Assembly: GCF_900141855.1 (NCBI RefSeq)
Contig: NZ_FQYU01000006.1
Span: 1 to 64,000 of the forward strand
Reading direction: 5' to 3'
DNA length: 64,000 nt
Source: Pseudozobellia thermophila
Lineage (GTDB): Bacteria > Bacteroidota > Bacteroidia > Flavobacteriales > Flavobacteriaceae
This document shows positions 26,679 through 33,857 of the stretch, piece by piece (the stretch's first letter is position 1; each line of letters starts with the position of its first letter). A model generated the notes under the pieces. It was not told where the DNA came from and ran no database searches. It was given only the letters and a program-made list of their open reading frames with translations. A program made the position numbers and the translations under genes.

Positions 26679-27218
26679 ATGAAATTTTCACCATTGGATG
26701 TGGAGGACTTAGAAGCATTTTTTAAGGAGAACCACACGTATCTTTGTTTGGTGGCACTGGCCATCGTTAGGGATGGGGACGTGGCCAAGGATATCGTTCA
26801 AGATTTTTTTATATCGTATTGGGAAAAAAGGAAGTCGGTCAAATTTACTGTATCGTTCAAGGCCTATGCCGTAAAGGCGGTACGGAATCTGAGCCTGCAG
26901 CATTTGAGAAAGGTAAAGAGGCAAGAACTGCTGGTCGAGCATCTCACCTACGGCGATAAGGCCGAAAATGAAGCCCAAGAGAGCTTGGGCAATAGGCAAA
27001 AGCTCCATGAGCTGTTGCAACGACTGCCCGAGAGCCGGAGAAAAATTTTCATATCCTATGTGATATATGGGCAGAGCTATTCCGAAATAGCCGAGAACAA
27101 CGGTATTTCGATAAATACGGTAAAGACCCAAATGAAACGGGCTTACGGGTTTTTAAGGTCCGAGGCCAATCCTGATATTTTGTACTTCCTCTTTTTGAGT
27201 GTCCTTCCAATGGGCTAG
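26679..27218 (+). CDS. ECF RNA polymerase sigma factor (FecI-like, PUL type)
   Basis: A protein of 179 residues. Sigma region 2 (about 8-80) has LVALAIVRDGDVAKDIVQDFF and FKAYAVKAVRNLSLQHLRK; region 4 (about 108-165) has LPESRRKIFISYVIYGQSY and GISINTVKTQMKRAYGFL, the helix-turn-helix. This is the Bacteroidota group of sigma factors linked to SusC/FecR. It is divergent from fecR, whereas these pairs are commonly in the same direction. It should drive the 12.3-26.5 kb operon. Confidence 0.93.
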   Translation: MKFSPLDVEDLEAFFKENHTYLCLVALAIVRDGDVAKDIVQDFFISYWEKRKSVKFTVSFKAYAVKAVRNLSLQHLRKVKRQELLVEHLTYGDKAENEAQESLGNRQKLHELLQRLPESRRKIFISYVIYGQSYSEIAENNGISINTVKTQMKRAYGFLRSEANPDILYFLFLSVLPMG

Positions 27219-27545: not shown

Positions 27546-28184
27546 ATGCGAGTGATTGACCTTTTACCTGTGGTTGTATTAAGTGCGATGGTCCATGTAG
27601 GGTTTTCCCAAGACAATAATGACACCAATGTTGCCACCCATCCTTTAAACGTTTCGATTCCGGAGGTGGCCTTGATTGATGTCTACGACAACAATACGGG
27701 CCTTGAAGCTGCCGCCATAGACTTCGATTTGGCCGATGCGACAAGTGGTGGCACGAATTCCGAAGCCGGTCTGTACAATTTTCAGGATTTGGAGTATACC
27801 GATTTATGGATCAATTACACCAGCGTTACCGGGGCGGGAGGCTCGGGTTTTGACGTATCTCGACAAATTGATGTGCAAATGGAGGCGGGAAGTACCTTTC
27901 CTTCCAGTTTCGACCTTAGAATTACCCCCGAAGCCCCGGTAATTGTTGCCAATGGCGGGACGGTCGATTCTGCCGGTACCGTAACCACGGGGGGCGTAGC
28001 CTTGGGCACAACGACCGCCATAGGAACCAATGCCACGCTTGTAAGTGGTATTGAAAGTGTTTACACCGGCGACGAGACCCAAGGGGTAAGGCTTACCTAC
28101 TCCCTTGAACAAAACGGGAATTTCGCCGGATACGAGGCAGGGGTATACACGGCCACACTTCGATATACCTTGTCGGATCTATAG
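27546..28184 (+). CDS. Exported beta-rich protein, candidate major fibre subunit
   Basis: A protein of 212 residues with a signal peptide ending VGFSQ. The mature part is rich in Thr, Gly, Val and Asp, with no Cys. It resembles the protein of the gene at 31862: HPLNVSIPEVALIDV versus FLSADLLEVQLVDV; DLWINYTS versus DLWLNITS; QGVRLTYSLEQ versus KGFQLRYTITN; both end in a hydrophobic alternating strand (ATLRYTLSDL here). Size, composition and the pairing with chaperone-like and usher-like genes suggest a pilin-type subunit. It is first in the cluster, and a hairpin follows it, as is common after abundant subunits. No named family was recognised. Confidence 0.6.
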   Translation: MRVIDLLPVVVLSAMVHVGFSQDNNDTNVATHPLNVSIPEVALIDVYDNNTGLEAAAIDFDLADATSGGTNSEAGLYNFQDLEYTDLWINYTSVTGAGGSGFDVSRQIDVQMEAGSTFPSSFDLRITPEAPVIVANGGTVDSAGTVTTGGVALGTTTAIGTNATLVSGIESVYTGDETQGVRLTYSLEQNGNFAGYEAGVYTATLRYTLSDL

Positions 28185-28200
28185 AATAAGCCAATCTAGG

Positions 28201-28234
28201 GCGGGAAGGCCATAGTCTTATGTCTTCCCTCCGC
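28201..28234 (+). terminator. Hairpin after first subunit gene: partial terminator or mRNA stabiliser
   Basis: GGGAAG (28203-28208) pairs with CTTCCC (28224-28229), with outer GC/GC pairing possible around a one-base bulge; TGTTTT follows at 28238. It stands between subunit and chaperone-like genes and could make the subunit message more abundant than the rest of the cluster. Confidence 0.5.
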
Positions 28235-28324
28235 GATGTGTTTTATGGGATAGGGGCGCTTTATGGGCATGGTATCCGTAAAGATGAATGATTTCGGGGG
28301 CACATTCTTTAAGTTGTATACACC

Positions 28325-29107
28325 ATGAAACCAATCCGATTACTTCTACTTTTTTTCTTTATTGTTTCTTTTGGTTCGTTTGCCAATGTTTCAGTGATTA
28401 ATGGTCTCACGCATGTTTATTCAGGGGTTTCGGGAGACGTGATTACGGGAGAGATCATACTGGTGAACTATTCCTCAACCGTAGAACGGGTAAGGTTCGA
28501 TGTTCAGGAGGCCATCTATTCCTGCGCCGAGGCCAGGATCTTTACCGGTGATGCCACCCATCCCTTATCGTCCTCATCTTGGCTGAACAGTAATGTAAAC
28601 GAACGGGTTTTGGCCCCTAAAGAGCGTTATGTGCTAAAATTCACCATTAATATTCCCGAGGGGGACGAGCTGCGCGGGTCGTATTGGTCGGTATTGATGG
28701 TTTCGGTAGAAAAGCCGATCAAGGAAGAAATGATAAGCGAAAGCATCGGTATCGGTACCAAAATTCAGTATGCCATAGGCCTTATAACGAACGTCAATGC
28801 ACTGGACGAGGTAAATATTGGCTTTGACGACGTGCTTTCTACCGAAGGAGACGAAAAGAATTTACGGATCAGGGTGAAGAACGACGGCCGGTTTGCCGAG
28901 GCCACGTTACTTTCGTTGGAAGTGTACGATCAGAACGGGGTTATGGTAAGAGAGTACAAAACAAGGAGGTTATTGGTGTTTCCGGAGGTTTGCAGGGATT
29001 ACCTTCTTACGATTTCAGATCTCGACAAGGGCGCCTACGATTGCGTTTTGGTGGCCGATTCGCGGGAGGCTTTTGTCGGAACCAATCTCCGGCTCACCAT
29101 AGATTAA
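28325..29107 (+). CDS. Periplasmic Ig-like protein, candidate fibre chaperone
   Basis: A protein of 260 residues with signal peptide (LLLFFFIVSFGSFA). It appears to have two Ig-like halves. The first (about 20-135) runs GDVITGEIILVNYSSTVERVRFDVQEA to VLAPKERYVLKFTINIPEG and SYWSVLMVSVEKP; the second (about 150-260) has LRIRVKNDGRFAEATLLSLEVYD and DKGAYDCVLVAD. A two-domain Ig protein of about 240 mature residues is the layout of PapD-type chaperones, and the pattern also resembles the DUF916 proteins of WxL systems. Sequence identity to known chaperones cannot be claimed. Neighbours are subunit-like and usher-like genes. Confidence 0.55.
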   Translation: MKPIRLLLLFFFIVSFGSFANVSVINGLTHVYSGVSGDVITGEIILVNYSSTVERVRFDVQEAIYSCAEARIFTGDATHPLSSSSWLNSNVNERVLAPKERYVLKFTINIPEGDELRGSYWSVLMVSVEKPIKEEMISESIGIGTKIQYAIGLITNVNALDEVNIGFDDVLSTEGDEKNLRIRVKNDGRFAEATLLSLEVYDQNGVMVREYKTRRLLVFPEVCRDYLLTISDLDKGAYDCVLVADSREAFVGTNLRLTID

Positions 29108-29144
29108 GTAAGTAGGGAACACTTGCCTCGATTTAAACCAACAA

Positions 29145-31859
29145 ATGTTGAACAACATATCATTTTATGCAATGTTTCTATTGTTTTCGTGTAATCTTCT
29201 GGCACAAGTGGATATTCGCATAAAAAACGATAGTGTTTTGTATGACATGAGGCCCGAATCGAAACGTACCCTGGTTGCCGAAGTCGAGAACCTGTCAGAT
29301 ACGGTTCAATTTGTTAGAACCGTTCTCGATCTGGAAGACAATTGGGAAATTATTTCCAACGGCTTTACCGGCAATCTTCGGCCGGGTGAAAAAAGATTGG
29401 TCCTGGTAACCGTCTATGTGCCGAACAAGGTATTGCCCGGTAAACGTAGGGCCAACCTGCGGTTGCTCTCTTTTAAGGAAAAGGTTTTAAAATCCATTGC
29501 CCTTCAAATGTTGGTGCCCGAGCATCATCGGTTATCGATAAGCAAGTTGTCGTCGCCCGACCTGGTCTTCGCGGGGGAAACGATCTACAATAAGTTTGAA
29601 ATAGTCAACAAGGGCAATGTAGACGAAGAGGTAATGCTCCATTCCGATAGCGATATAGAAGGGGCAAGGGCTCAAAAAATCGAGGCTGGTTCATCGTTGG
29701 TAATAACCCTAAAGAAGGAAACGGATAAACGGTTTCGCAAGATGAAGACCGAAAATACACACTTAAGCCTGGTCAGGACCGGTGATTCGGTCGTTACGGC
29801 ACGCGGTTATGCCCTTACCAAGGTCTACCCCCTTAAAATGGAGGCGGAAGATGCTTTTTTTAGGTTTCCCATAGAGGCGAGCCTTTATTACAATACCTTT
29901 AACTCCAAAGAGAACAACTACGCCTCTTTTATGGTCGAAACCCGGGGTGAAGGGTACTTGGACCAGGGCAAATCGCACCATTTCGATTTTTTGGTCAGAA
30001 CCCCAAATCAAAACCGTGTAAACCGGTTCGGAATGAACGACCAATATAGCTTTACGTACGATTACGACAACGAGTTCAACGTAGTGCTGGGCGATTATAG
30101 TTATAGGCCCCATAGGCTGGGGTTTGTAAGTAGGTATGGCTTTGGCCTGAAAATGGAATACCATAGCGGAAATACCAAGTTTACGACCTTCTATGCCAAG
30201 CCCCGATTGCCCTTTTTGTATACGGAGTCCATTGCCGGACTAAAGGTTGGACAAAAGCTTTCGGAAACCTTCACCGTGGGAGCCTCGATAGCGTCGTCTA
30301 CCGAAAATGTTCTTTCGGCCAACACCCTATCGTTGGAACCTGAATTGCGAACCGGGCAAATTTTGGTCGTCGAATCGGGATATAAAACAAAAAATACCCT
30401 TATCAACCACGAATCGTCGATAAGTACGGTCAATTCCACAACCGGATCTGCACACGACTTGAGCGTAAGCCAAAAATTGGATAATGTAAGCTACAACGGC
30501 AGCTTTACCTTTGCGGGAAAGAACTATTTCGGAGGCTTGGGCAATAGTCTTAGATATGCGAACAGCCTAAGTTACCGCCATGGCAAATGGGGCGTAGGGG
30601 CGGGGCAGGCATTATCGAAAGTAAATGAACGTTATAACCCGGTCTACGCCTTGCCCGAACCCTTCTATGAGAATTATTACATCGTAGGCGACTACAAGAT
30701 TGGCAAAAGACAACAGGTCAATGTTCGGTGGAGCAATGCGGTAAGGGAAGATCGGCAGGTTCAAAAAAGTTACCACTATAAGGAGCACGGCCTAGACTAT
30801 ACCTATAGGTACATGCATCAGGGACTTAGTCTATCGCTTAACGGTAGGTTCTCCAAGACCCGAAACATCCTGAGCTTGGATAAGACCTATAGAAGTACCT
30901 ATGGACACAATCTGAGCGGGGCCTACCGGTTGACGACCGTATTGGGGCTGAGGGCCAATATGAACCACAACTACACCAATCGCTATGGAATTTCGGGGCA
31001 AACGAGCAATTTTTATAATTACGGATTGGGCTTTAACCTGAACCTGAAGGGAAGAACGACCCTGTCGGCCATGTTCAACAGTGGTTTTAGTCCGGAAGAC
31101 AGCTACCTGCAGCGCGATTTTATCAACCTGAACCTCAATACAAAAATACGTCGGGTCCATAGGCTCTCGGTAAGGTTGAATTACTATGAAAATGCCTTGG
31201 CGGCAAACCGTAGGGAGGTCTTCAGTTTTTTAAAGTACACCTATTCCTTAGGAGCTCCCCTTAAGCGTATCAGGTGGCGTGGAACCCTGGGGGGAAGCAT
31301 CCTTACCCATAATAAGGGCATTTCCGTTGACAGGGTCAAGGTAAATGCATCGGGTCAAGATACCTATACCGATGCTTTCGGAAATTTTGAAATAAAGAAC
31401 CTGTCCGTAGGGACCAACTACCTCGTAATCGATGAGTCGACCCTGCCCATAGGCGTCGTTGCGGTTCAGCGTATGCCCATTGAAATCGATGTGCGGCAAG
31501 ACAAGGAAGTGCAATGTGAAATAGAGCTGGTAGAGGCGGCCATGGTCGAGGGTTCGTTACTACTCGGGCAAAATAAGGGCGGGGAAGCTCCCAACCTTGA
31601 GGGCTATTTAAAGCTCGAAGGAGCGGTACACACCTACTATACCGAGAGCGATAAAAACGGAAAATTCACCATCAAATCCTTGGTGCCCGGTAGCTACGAA
31701 CTGTCGGTAGTTCGGTTAAAGCACGAAAACGACCTGAAACCAAGCAAAACATATAGAATTACCCTGGCCGAAGGCGAAACCCTTGAAACTACCGTAGAAC
31801 TGGCAAAGAAGGATAGGGGCATCAAATTCAGGTCATCGGGGTTTTCGGTAAAAATATAA
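29145..31859 (+). CDS. Large outer-membrane barrel with Ig-like ends, candidate usher
   Basis: A protein of 904 residues with a signal peptide ending NLLAQ. N-terminal part: two Ig-like/NEW3-like domains (about 21-115, with LVAEVENLSDTVQFVRTVL and LRPGEKRLVLVTVYVPN; about 120-230). Middle part (about 235-765): long run of amphipathic, Tyr/Asn-rich strands (FNVVLGDYSYRPHRLGFVSR, YKTKNTLINHES, LSLNGRFSKTRN, LRANMNHNYTNRYG), a large beta-barrel. C-terminal part: two carboxypeptidase-regulatory/SdrB-like domains (about 790-830, VNASGQDTYTDAFGNFEIKNL; about 835-895, LEGAVHTYYTESDKNGKF). Globular N-terminus, barrel and two C-terminal beta-domains is the layout of fimbrial ushers. The match is architectural, not by recognised signature. 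Confidence 0.6.
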   Translation: MLNNISFYAMFLLFSCNLLAQVDIRIKNDSVLYDMRPESKRTLVAEVENLSDTVQFVRTVLDLEDNWEIISNGFTGNLRPGEKRLVLVTVYVPNKVLPGKRRANLRLLSFKEKVLKSIALQMLVPEHHRLSISKLSSPDLVFAGETIYNKFEIVNKGNVDEEVMLHSDSDIEGARAQKIEAGSSLVITLKKETDKRFRKMKTENTHLSLVRTGDSVVTARGYALTKVYPLKMEAEDAFFRFPIEASLYYNTFNSKENNYASFMVETRGEGYLDQGKSHHFDFLVRTPNQNRVNRFGMNDQYSFTYDYDNEFNVVLGDYSYRPHRLGFVSRYGFGLKMEYHSGNTKFTTFYAKPRLPFLYTESIAGLKVGQKLSETFTVGASIASSTENVLSANTLSLEPELRTGQILVVESGYKTKNTLINHESSISTVNSTTGSAHDLSVSQKLDNVSYNGSFTFAGKNYFGGLGNSLRYANSLSYRHGKWGVGAGQALSKVNERYNPVYALPEPFYENYYIVGDYKIGKRQQVNVRWSNAVREDRQVQKSYHYKEHGLDYTYRYMHQGLSLSLNGRFSKTRNILSLDKTYRSTYGHNLSGAYRLTTVLGLRANMNHNYTNRYGISGQTSNFYNYGLGFNLNLKGRTTLSAMFNSGFSPEDSYLQRDFINLNLNTKIRRVHRLSVRLNYYENALAANRREVFSFLKYTYSLGAPLKRIRWRGTLGGSILTHNKGISVDRVKVNASGQDTYTDAFGNFEIKNLSVGTNYLVIDESTLPIGVVAVQRMPIEIDVRQDKEVQCEIELVEAAMVEGSLLLGQNKGGEAPNLEGYLKLEGAVHTYYTESDKNGKFTIKSLVPGSYELSVVRLKHENDLKPSKTYRITLAEGETLETTVELAKKDRGIKFRSSGFSVKI

Positions 31860-31861
31860 GT

Positions 31862-32455
31862 ATGAAGACAACATTGGGGATATTTCTTTGGATGCTACTG
31901 CCGGGCCTTGTTTGGGCCCAAGAGACCATAGATGCCAGCGACCCCGCAAATTATATTGTCGGAGGGGCCCAGGGCTACCATTTTTTAAGTGCGGATCTGC
32001 TGGAGGTACAGCTGGTCGACGTAGAGCCGGAAATAGACAATGCCCTGTCCTTTGAGGTCGACCCTAATACCTTGGAGGCCGGCCTGCCCGTGTTTTCAGC
32101 GTCGGGAGGCGGGGTAAACGAAGATTTGTGGCTCAACATCACATCGCGGACGGCTGGTCTTGAAAAATATCAGGTAAGGGTGTATGGCAATCAGCCCCTT
32201 CCCCCCGAAATAGAAATTCAGGTCCAGGTAGTGAACGCAACAAGTGTAGGGGGAGTGGGCGATACGGGGACCGCATCCACCACGGCGGTCACCTTAAGTG
32301 AAACACCCACGGTACTCATTTCGGATATAGGCCGGGGTTTTACGACGGATGGGATCAATAAGGGATTTCAATTGAGGTATACCATTACCAATCTTGGAGG
32401 AGGGGCCCTGCCTGTTGGTTTTGAGGTAATATACGATATGCAATTGCAAATTTAA
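31862..32455 (+). CDS. Exported beta-rich protein, candidate second fibre subunit
   Basis: A protein of 197 residues with signal peptide ending LVWAQ; it starts two bases after the usher-like gene. It shares a full-length pattern with the protein at 27546: LLEVQLVDV, DLWLNITS, a central IQVQVVNATS strand, TTDGINKGFQLRYTITN, and a final hydrophobic strand (FEVIYDMQLQI). No Cys. Likely a paralogous minor or adaptor subunit of the same fibre. Homology to the first subunit was seen by eye only. Confidence 0.58.
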   Translation: MKTTLGIFLWMLLPGLVWAQETIDASDPANYIVGGAQGYHFLSADLLEVQLVDVEPEIDNALSFEVDPNTLEAGLPVFSASGGGVNEDLWLNITSRTAGLEKYQVRVYGNQPLPPEIEIQVQVVNATSVGGVGDTGTASTTAVTLSETPTVLISDIGRGFTTDGINKGFQLRYTITNLGGGALPVGFEVIYDMQLQI

Positions 32456-32464
32456 GTAGGTGGC

Positions 32465-33040
32465 ATGAGAATAATTTATGTAGGTATACTGTGGTTTTTT
32501 TGTTTGTCCGGTTGTTATGGGCAATTGTTGTCGGGCAGTTTGTACGGTACCTCGGGCCCAACGTACTCACAAACCTTGGGCGACCTGGTGACCGAGGCCG
32601 GGGAAGACGGTACCGGAACGGCCTACGAGACCGGCGCAAGTGAGGTAATGCTTAGTTTTAGGCTCGATCCGGGCCTCTTAAGTAGCTCGGCCCAACGGTG
32701 TACTTCCAACGTGTACAAGTACAAAGTTTTCATTCACATTCAAAATGCCCCGGAGGGCTTGGTTCTCGAGGCACGTACCTTTAGCAATGCCGGCGATCGA
32801 TATCCGGCAAGTATCCTGTACGATGTTTTGCCGGTCAATGGCCCGAGGGACCTATACCCGGAGAACGGTGGCGACTATATAACGATTCCGGACGACGAGA
32901 CGGCGGCGATTAAGTTGTTCGAATTTACGGGATGTAGGGAGAATATCCCCATACAGTTTAGGATTTCGGCGAGTGTACTTGCCGAACCGGGCGCTAGCAG
33001 TACGGAGATTTATTATACCGTAGTCGGAAGCCTGAATTGA
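32465..33040 (+). CDS. Exported protein with one Cys pair, candidate tip subunit
   Basis: A protein of 191 residues with a signal peptide (FFCLSGCYGQ). It differs from the two subunit-like proteins: the mature part has two Cys (QRCTSN and FTGCREN) likely to form a disulfide, and the fold pattern VMLSFRLDPGLL, YKVFIHIQNAPEGLVLEA, IPIQFRISASVLAEPG is beta-rich. The C-terminus (TEIYYTVVGSLN) is again a hydrophobic alternating strand. As last gene of the cluster, 9 bp after the second subunit, it could be a tip adhesin or terminator subunit. Not recognised as a named family. Confidence 0.55.
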   Translation: MRIIYVGILWFFCLSGCYGQLLSGSLYGTSGPTYSQTLGDLVTEAGEDGTGTAYETGASEVMLSFRLDPGLLSSSAQRCTSNVYKYKVFIHIQNAPEGLVLEARTFSNAGDRYPASILYDVLPVNGPRDLYPENGGDYITIPDDETAAIKLFEFTGCRENIPIQFRISASVLAEPGASSTEIYYTVVGSLN

Positions 33041-33272
33041 CAAAGGAAGTTTATGGGCTTAAAATGAATCCGATGGGGAGGTTTGGCATTGAAAACGAAA
33101 AAGGTCGCTTCTCAATTGGTCAATGGCGTCGTGTGAATCAGGTGGGCGGTTATCGTCCAGTGTAGGCGAAGTAAAGGGGGCTTTCTATATGGACGACAAA
33201 ATATTCGAAAAATGTTTACCCGGTTTGGGAATGTGGCGTAAATTACCTATTCTTCGGAGAAATTGCATTGGT

Positions 33273-33857
33273 ATGGAGCGTAATGAGTTATATCCTGTCT
33301 TCTTAAAAGTCTCAGAGTTGAATATTTTAATTGTTGGCGGGGGCAATGTGGCGCACGAGAAATTAAGCTTCTTGTTGAAATCGAGCCCCTCTGCCCGGGT
33401 AGAGATGGTGGCGCCCCTGTATCGTGAAGAAACCATTGCCCTGGCAAAACAATACAATATTCAAATGCACAAGGCCCCTTACGATGCCTCATACCTTGAG
33501 GGGCGGCATGTGGTCGTGGCCACGACCGACAAAATCGAGGTGAACGAGCAGGTGTATCACGACTGTCGGGATCGGAGTATTTTGGTAAACGTTGCCGACA
33601 ACCCGCCGCTGTGTGATTTTTACATGGGGGGCATTGTTACCAAGGGCAATGTAAAGGTGGCCATATCGACCAATGGTAAATCGCCCACCACCGCTAAGAG
33701 GTTGCGGCAGTTTTTTGAGGATGTGCTTCCGGATAACATCGATGACTTGGTAAAAAACCTGAACGCGTACCGAAAATCGATCAAGGGAAGCTTTGAACAA
33801 AAAGTTGAGGCCTTGAACGAATTTACCAAGGGCCTTGTTGAAAACAACGATAATTAA
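33273..33857 (+). CDS. Precorrin-2 dehydrogenase / sirohydrochlorin ferrochelatase (CysG N-terminal type)
   Basis: A cytoplasmic enzyme of 194 residues that oxidises precorrin-2 with NAD and can insert iron to make siroheme. Start at 33273 (MERNELYPVF); the longer frame upstream is not protein-like. The Rossmann motif is ILIVGGGNVAHEKL (18-31); NVADNPPLCDFYMGG holds the conserved catalytic Asp; VAISTNGKSPTTAKRLR is the usual ending of the dimerisation part. The methyltransferase (CobA) half is absent and is not nearby, so it must be encoded elsewhere. The flanking clusters have no clear link to siroheme. Confidence 0.92.
   Translation: MERNELYPVFLKVSELNILIVGGGNVAHEKLSFLLKSSPSARVEMVAPLYREETIALAKQYNIQMHKAPYDASYLEGRHVVVATTDKIEVNEQVYHDCRDRSILVNVADNPPLCDFYMGGIVTKGNVKVAISTNGKSPTTAKRLRQFFEDVLPDNIDDLVKNLNAYRKSIKGSFEQKVEALNEFTKGLVENNDN

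Follow-up and report, generated by a model that had tools for sequence, protein, structure and literature searches.

In a 64,000-nucleotide stretch of Pseudozobellia thermophila DNA (Flavobacteriaceae; contig NZ_FQYU01000006.1, positions 1 to 64,000; the window), a compact operon of five plus-strand genes (27546–33040) probably encodes a system that assembles a surface fibre or short surface polymer and, as far as its anatomy can tell, works like a chaperone–usher pathway. The evidence in hand comprises the homology of its chaperone to WxLIP, the PapD-like predicted fold of that chaperone, a FimD-like predicted fold of its barrel protein according to one of two structural aligners, the mutual homology of its subunits and the linkage of the genes; from these we infer strand donation, export through the barrel, polymerisation and the fibre. 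We conclude that the operon represents a new, widespread chaperone–usher-like variant, one that connects the WxL/WxLIP systems with those of PapD type. A first-pass annotation of the sequence had proposed a chaperone–usher-like system here, and it was right in outline: the chaperone fold, the Foldseek matches to FimD, the subunit family and the co-occurrence of the genes bear it out, whereas the plug that it expected in the barrel and the barrel ranking of the second aligner, VIA, do not. Because two defining usher features, the Pfam family PF00577 and a plug, were tested and not found, we do not file the operon as classical chaperone–usher.

By sequence profile, the second protein of the operon belongs to a family that is homologous to WxLIP (DUF916/DUF3324), and its predicted fold is PapD-like. 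A profile of 34 chaperone sequences matched the Enterococcus faecium EfmWxLIP1 structures in the PDB (9i25_C and 9i1y_A; E = 6e-13), and hhalign comparison of the family with eight WxLIP proteins of lactic acid bacteria and enterococci gave E = 4e-15 across both domains (reversed control, 0.39). At the level of the family, both expected WxLIP domains were recovered, with the Pfam models WxLIP_HBD and WxLIP_PGBD matching 21 and 20 of 55 alignment rows, respectively (17 rows are subunits alone); the window chaperone by itself matched neither of these, nor PapD_N. The fold was taken from an AlphaFold2 model of the orthologue at locus L006, linked to its subunit by read-through of stops (mean predicted local distance difference test score (pLDDT) 81.7); the chaperone part scored mostly near or above 90, except for 71–75 at residues 361–380. 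VIA placed WxLIP first (Z = 15.9; root-mean-square deviation (r.m.s.d.) 6.8 Å, 229 residues aligned), followed by CfaA (Z = 13.5; 5.6 Å, 195) and FimC (Z = 13.2; 4.5 Å, 182), with the Csu (CsuC) and Caf1M chaperones at about 12–13 and many other PapD-family chaperones listed. These matches agree with the initial view of this protein as a periplasmic, chaperone-like protein of two immunoglobulin (Ig)-like domains. The window protein has three cysteines and ends in ...GTNLRLTID, with no C-terminal transmembrane helix visible on reading; in the L006 model the chaperone terminates in a strand. Among incidental matches, some to PF06030 fall in frames of 779–936 amino acids and look like cross-hits, and a Klebsiella pneumoniae plasmid record (CP069367.1, 101782–102447) holds a 73% match to an enterococcal WxLIP, perhaps from a contaminated assembly.

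Intermediate proteins from other Bacteroidota connect this chaperone to PapD by sequence. Compared directly with eight PapD-type chaperones of Escherichia coli K-12, the window family gave a weak match (hhalign E = 0.002, probability 13.8%). Intermediate chaperones (A13; from loci of family f38 and of L117 type) matched the window family at E = 1.5e-20 and the same K-12 chaperones at E = 8.3e-6 (probability 83.5%; reversed, 0.14), and within a small set of open reading frames the L117 chaperone was hit by both profiles (8e-14 and 5e-8). A PapD-type chaperone of two Ig domains is recognised in the predicted fold of the L006 protein, and by sequence via these intermediates only. The earlier statement that no PapD signature can be recognised holds for the window protein but not for its family, which is tied by profile to WxLIP (4e-15) and, via intermediates, to PapD-type chaperones (8e-6).

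The f38 usher operons (L116 and L123–L126) and L117 resemble the window in their homologous chaperones and in the small secreted subunit-like genes upstream (weak profile matches). Their barrels, of 949–1505 amino acids, differ from that of the window in appearing, by eye, to keep usher-like N-terminal and plug-like segments, and in at least L116 a C-terminal extension carries SPOR domains. PF00577 matched below its cut-off in 4 of 395 genomes, all of family f38 (E = 2e-5 to 7e-4), and in none above it. Against six K-12 ushers, hhalign gave E = 3.8e-4 for the N-terminal half of the f38/L117 barrels (reversed, 0.59) and 0.0015 for the full barrels (reversed, 0.054); the window barrel family matched the f38/L117 barrels over full length at 9.9e-12. 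The usher link is based on predicted fold, and by sequence is only suggestive.

The window barrel was modelled from 48 sequences (mean pLDDT 85.9; predicted TM-score (pTM) 0.63) as an N-terminal beta-rich region at residues ~24–230, barrel strands at 238–721 and two C-terminal beta-domains. This is the layout first described from the sequence, and its C-terminal part is also seen by Pfam. The N-terminal domains are Ig-like in the model, and Ig-like Pfam models match this part in some relatives (NPCBM_assoc in 18 of 48 and FixG_C in 18 of 48). Twenty-seven strands were modelled, the last probably part of the first C-terminal domain; the count is hence 26–27, more than the 24 or so anticipated. 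In a Foldseek search of the PDB, the eight best matches were all FimD (E = 6.8e-17 to 1e-13 over 751–788 alignment columns), with PapC at rank 12; VIA aligned PapC over residues 137–888 (Z = 14.7, r.m.s.d. 9.8 Å, 441 aligned). PF00577 was absent from the window barrel at E ≤ 1, from its own genome and from the best 25 of 75 families matched by the 48 relatives. The earlier remark that no usher signature is recognisable accordingly holds for the window barrel, but CooC_C, an usher domain of CS1 pili, matched 2 of the 48 relatives (best E = 1.3e-5). Searched alone against PDB sequences, the window barrel returned nothing at E ≤ 10; hits of its profile lay outside the barrel, either in the C-terminal domains (NOMO2 the best, 1.2e-16) or in the Ig-like region at the N terminus (sialidases, 7.5e-4). 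Two leads were set aside. A block LGDxxY..RYGRG looks by eye like the usher motif LGDxYT..FRG, but hhalign did not align the motif, and comparison of the block with K-12 ushers (E = 0.46) and f38 barrels (0.092) fell within or near shuffled controls (0.013–0.69); a single-sequence match to EcpC of K-12 (E = 0.004) covered the first C-terminal domain only and was not used.

The three small proteins form one homologous family, in keeping with the initial description of two of them as subunit-like. Subunits 1 and 2 (genes 1 and 4) are paralogues whose profiles match each other, and subunit 3 matched them at E = 5.5e-9 (hhalign; reversed, 0.066). In the L006 model, residues 21–35 of subunit 1 lie outside the fold (pLDDT < 50) and are followed by alternating hydrophobic residues, a start that the N-terminal extensions of pilins resemble; at the C terminus the family has a conserved strand. 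Cysteine is absent from subunits 1 and 2, which therefore have no lipobox; subunit 3 has mature-region cysteines at 79 and 157, on which its first description as Cys-paired rests. A lipobox-like LSGC occurs in the signal region of subunit 3 (32465–32515); it is not conserved in 20 aligned homologues, with one other seen (L054). The reading of the subunits as WxL domains was kept as a lead only: Pfam WxL matched none of 40 subunits at E ≤ 1, and hhalign matches were limited to a C-terminal stretch. A second operon subtype, found in other genomes of the genus labelled g41, consists of tandem subunit genes, chaperone, barrel and a 477-amino-acid protein with a subunit-like C terminus, a candidate tip adhesin. 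Loci of this subtype (L113–L115, L118 and also L135–L137) carry tandem subunits (between one, in L136, and five, in L113), a WxLIP-type chaperone, a divergent barrel and a tip-adhesin candidate of 339–478 amino acids; in L135 and L136 an adhesin-like gene lies between chaperone and barrel.

The operon is more than a chance arrangement, because homologous operons recur in the same gene order. We found 44 near-full-length barrel matches in 43 of 395 genomes of an order-level sample (weaker partial matches were dropped); 17 of 395 genomes in a phylum-level sample matched at E ≤ 1e-12. In a first sample of relatives, matches were seen in 5 of 60 genomes, the own genome included. Examination covered 43 of the 44 order-level places (all but G150) and all 13 further phylum-level genomes. 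The linkage set comprised 62 barrel loci including the window, some genomes giving two and 32 loci coming from g41; the barrel is present in all 62 by construction. The barrel count omits the fragment G419 and incomplete matches of far lower strength. Many of these fall in the carboxypeptidase-regulatory-like region or cover a short part of the barrel, and three (G356, G276 and G363) may be divergent relatives. In 60 of the 62, a gene of the chaperone family is the same-strand neighbour of the barrel gene; the other two are a fragment at the end of a contig (L091) and L099. The full order of subunit, chaperone, barrel, subunit 2 and subunit 3 occurs in 40 (31 in g41, 9 outside); one further locus has this order with an extra subunit, and L009, at a contig start, is without subunit 1. 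Co-occurrence of the gene families, a check proposed beforehand, was thus observed. In the reverse direction, the chaperone profile matched in all 10 barrel-bearing genomes tried and in 3 of 50 genomes that lacked a near-full-length match to the barrel; in those three, a divergent barrel adjoins the chaperone gene or lies one gene away, with subunit-like genes. A Maribacter metagenome-assembled genome carries the same five genes, with a barrel 61% identical, and both genes of the subunit-1/2 family in the own genome (5.04 Mb) lie inside the operon. The idea of a viral or plasmid barrel gene was dropped, with no confirmed relatives in viral contigs (pattern scan) or a plasmid collection. Some loci show peculiarities: subunits 2 and 3 share a single 345-amino-acid frame at L066 (436–1470); the barrels of L007 (4602–8513) and L041 (6149–10312) have about 400–500 extra N-terminal residues with no Pfam match at E ≤ 0.01, and the L007 protein starts in a somewhat lipoprotein-like way; and the L009 chaperone (333–1499) is interrupted near its middle by an acidic insertion of low complexity, some 120 residues long.

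In the mechanism that we propose, the three small proteins would reach the periplasm by Sec, each as a beta-sandwich presumed to lack a strand. The WxLIP/PapD-like chaperone would keep a subunit folded by a strand lent from its own first domain, and strand lending of WxLIP with WxL has been predicted in a published AlphaFold model. The complex would then dock on the barrel protein at its Ig-like domains and the subunit would cross the barrel; the N-terminal extension of the next subunit would displace the chaperone strand, and the chain would grow. Subunit 1 would repeat along the chain, with subunits 2 and 3 as its specialised ends.

Several observations weigh against an usher-driven polymer. 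The barrel model contains no plug-sized insertion (longest inter-strand gap, 14 residues) where the first-pass annotation had expected a plug; by this model, the barrel would have lost its plug or never had one. TM-scores of the Foldseek FimD matches are low (0.27–0.31 on the query), and Foldseek E-values alone are not specific because ciliary axoneme proteins, which carry Ig-like repeats and are clearly unrelated, appear from rank 9 onwards (E = 7e-13). The best VIA match of the barrel was MtrB (Z = 20.1, r.m.s.d. 5.9 Å, 426 aligned), well above PapC; porins fill most of the list, and an LptD model also follows. Against the six K-12 ushers, the barrel part gave no hhalign match (E = 0.078; reversed, 0.13). 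The match of the whole protein to the f38/L117 barrels comes mostly from the C-terminal domains (1.6e-9; barrel alone, 0.0016; reversed, 0.38). As to the subunits, the linked L006 subunit–chaperone model has a pTM of 0.52, as expected for halves not firmly docked; no recognised pilin family was found among 40 subunits by Pfam; their hhalign matches to WxL (E = 0.0017–0.011; shuffled controls, 0.64–0.98) are confined to the C-terminal stretch, the one at 0.011 to the last 15 columns; and for 20 of the 62 loci, separate genes for both subunits 2 and 3 were not found after the barrel, owing in part to contig ends, divergence or the L066 fusion. Given the lack of a match with K-12 ushers and the C-terminal seat of the f38/L117 match, it is fold, domain layout and the neighbouring genes, and not sequence, that carry the usher reading.

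If the VIA ranking and the absence of an usher profile match in the window barrel were taken at face value, the barrel could be an unrelated transporter or porin-type scaffold of MtrB or LptD kind, with the small proteins as accessory surface proteins. Resemblance to such a transporter, named at the outset as damaging to the usher reading, was seen in part: VIA prefers MtrB, whereas FimD fills the first eight places in Foldseek. With a PapD/WxLIP-type chaperone linked to the barrel in 60 of 62 loci, and no cytochrome or lipopolysaccharide-transport domain in the five proteins by Pfam, we hold this to be very unlikely. An ordinary chaperone–usher member that has drifted below profile cut-offs would explain the in-between Bacteroidota barrels, with their sub-cut-off PF00577 matches and plug-like segments, and the Bacteroidota chaperones that match K-12 PapD-type profiles. 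Known systems of this pathway (FimC/FimD of type 1 pili, CfaA, CsuC and Caf1M) indeed share with the window the gene order subunit–chaperone–usher–subunit, the PapD-like chaperone fold and, in the Foldseek matches, the FimD-like barrel, and with the second subtype a candidate tip protein with a subunit-like C terminus. The window lineage nevertheless departs from them in lacking PF00577, in a barrel predicted with Ig-like N-terminal domains, 26–27 strands and no plug-sized insertion, in a chaperone closer to WxLIP than to PapD and in subunits that match no pilin family, and simple drift seems to us distinctly improbable.

Another alternative is a WxL-like surface complex that is no polymer, in which a handful of beta-sandwich proteins would join the WxLIP homologue in a fixed adhesive complex, anchored or exported once by the barrel. 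The single copy of each subunit gene in the window fits this, and the WxL/WxLIP (DUF916–DUF3324) clusters of Firmicutes likewise set a WxLIP-type gene beside small beta-rich genes, to which the weak match of the subunit C-terminal stretch to WxL can be added. Such clusters are Gram-positive and without an outer-membrane barrel, whereas the window has one, no WxL match over the whole domain and no visible counterpart of the C-terminal transmembrane helix in which WxLIP ends, according to PMC10599100. Tandem subunits in related operons fit a repeating unit, and the top Foldseek matches of the barrel are ushers; on balance we think such a complex unlikely, although worth keeping in mind. The operon could also encode type V (FimA/Mfa1) fimbriae or a product of type IX secretion. 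To our knowledge, type V pili and type IX secretion are the only surface routes with which Bacteroidota are usually credited, the host phylum fits, subunit 3 has its LSGC, and among the 55 rows there were weak matches to Por_Secre_tail (4; best 0.0016), CHU_C (1; 1.3e-4) and Mfa2 (1; 9.8e-4). The type V fimbriae of Porphyromonas and Bacteroides are surface fibres thought to use strand exchange. In the window, however, subunits 1 and 2 have no lipoprotein precursor, the LSGC of subunit 3 is not conserved, a dedicated chaperone and barrel are present, and the five proteins matched no fimbrillin or type IX sorting domain (Pfam) and no type V pilus family (Pfam and NCBIfam) at E ≤ 1. The last result supports the original separation of this system from the FimA/Mfa1 route, and we give that origin hardly any credence. 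The chaperone–usher-like reading remains the one that we favour. No description of the operon system was found in the open-access literature, judged by the titles and abstract openings of the papers listed, so that this side of the case for novelty is weak. A term search of the main text of PMC10599100 turned up neither 'chaperone' nor 'usher', and PMC4793230 leaves out chaperone–usher systems.

The five genes first reported on one strand are present (Table 1), separated in order by 140, 37, 2 and 9 nucleotides, and each protein opens with a hydrophobic, signal-peptide-like stretch on reading by eye, in line with the claim that all are exported. NCBIfam gave zero matches for the five at E ≤ 1; the only named-family matches were to carboxypeptidase-regulatory-like and similar domains at the barrel C terminus (Pfam), the other matches up to E = 1 being weak and below cut-off. 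Upstream lie an extracytoplasmic function sigma-factor gene (26679–27218; Pfam) and, on the minus strand, two genes that read by sequence as anti-sigma-like and SusC-like; downstream is a siroheme-synthase-like gene (33123–33857; Pfam). An attenuator hairpin 3′ of subunit 1 was considered and dropped: the fold energy there equals that of shuffles, and terminator-like sites numbered 6 against 10.1 expected. A near-consensus promoter of sigma-70 type (11 of 12 positions) occurs at the operon end (33037–33065); promoters of Bacteroidota differ from this consensus, and the match may be chance.

Table 1 Features of the operon in the window (protein positions in residues).
Feature	Position	Strand	Description
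Subunit 1 (candidate major subunit)	27546..28184	+	212 aa; signal-peptide-like start, stretch of alternating hydrophobics HPLNVSIPEVAL, beta-rich body, C-terminal strand YTATLRYTLSDL
Spacer from subunit 1 gene to chaperone gene	28185..28324	+	140 nt; RNA fold not unusual (z 0.02)
Periplasmic chaperone-like protein	28325..29107	+	260 aa; two Ig-like domains; WxLIP (DUF916/DUF3324)-homologous family; PapD-like predicted fold (L006 orthologue)
Usher-like outer-membrane barrel	29145..31859	+	904 aa; Ig-like N-terminal ~24–230; 26–27 strands 238–721; carboxypeptidase-regulatory-like 717–798, 829–886
Subunit 2	31862..32455	+	197 aa; family of subunit 1
Subunit 3 (candidate terminal/tip subunit)	32465..33040	+	191 aa; distant subunit-family member; two mature-region cysteines

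Few bacterial surface organelles have been studied as well as chaperone–usher fibres. If our reading is right, the operon would provide environmental and commensal bacteria with a further fibre system and WxLIP with a testable chaperone role, and it would reveal which parts of an usher, such as the plug and the N-terminal domain, can be replaced. It would also open the question of how donor-strand assembly arose to tests that compare present-day intermediates. It is conceivable, at somewhat less than an even chance, that WxL/WxLIP display in Gram-positive bacteria and the chaperone–usher pathway of Gram-negative bacteria are two ends of one ancient family of strand-donating chaperones, with Bacteroidota as the missing middle. 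On this view, a chaperone of WxLIP type in the window lineage would deliver subunits to a 26-stranded usher that lacks a plug and has Ig-like docking domains, a distinct route of surface-fibre assembly that would be widespread in the order of the window.

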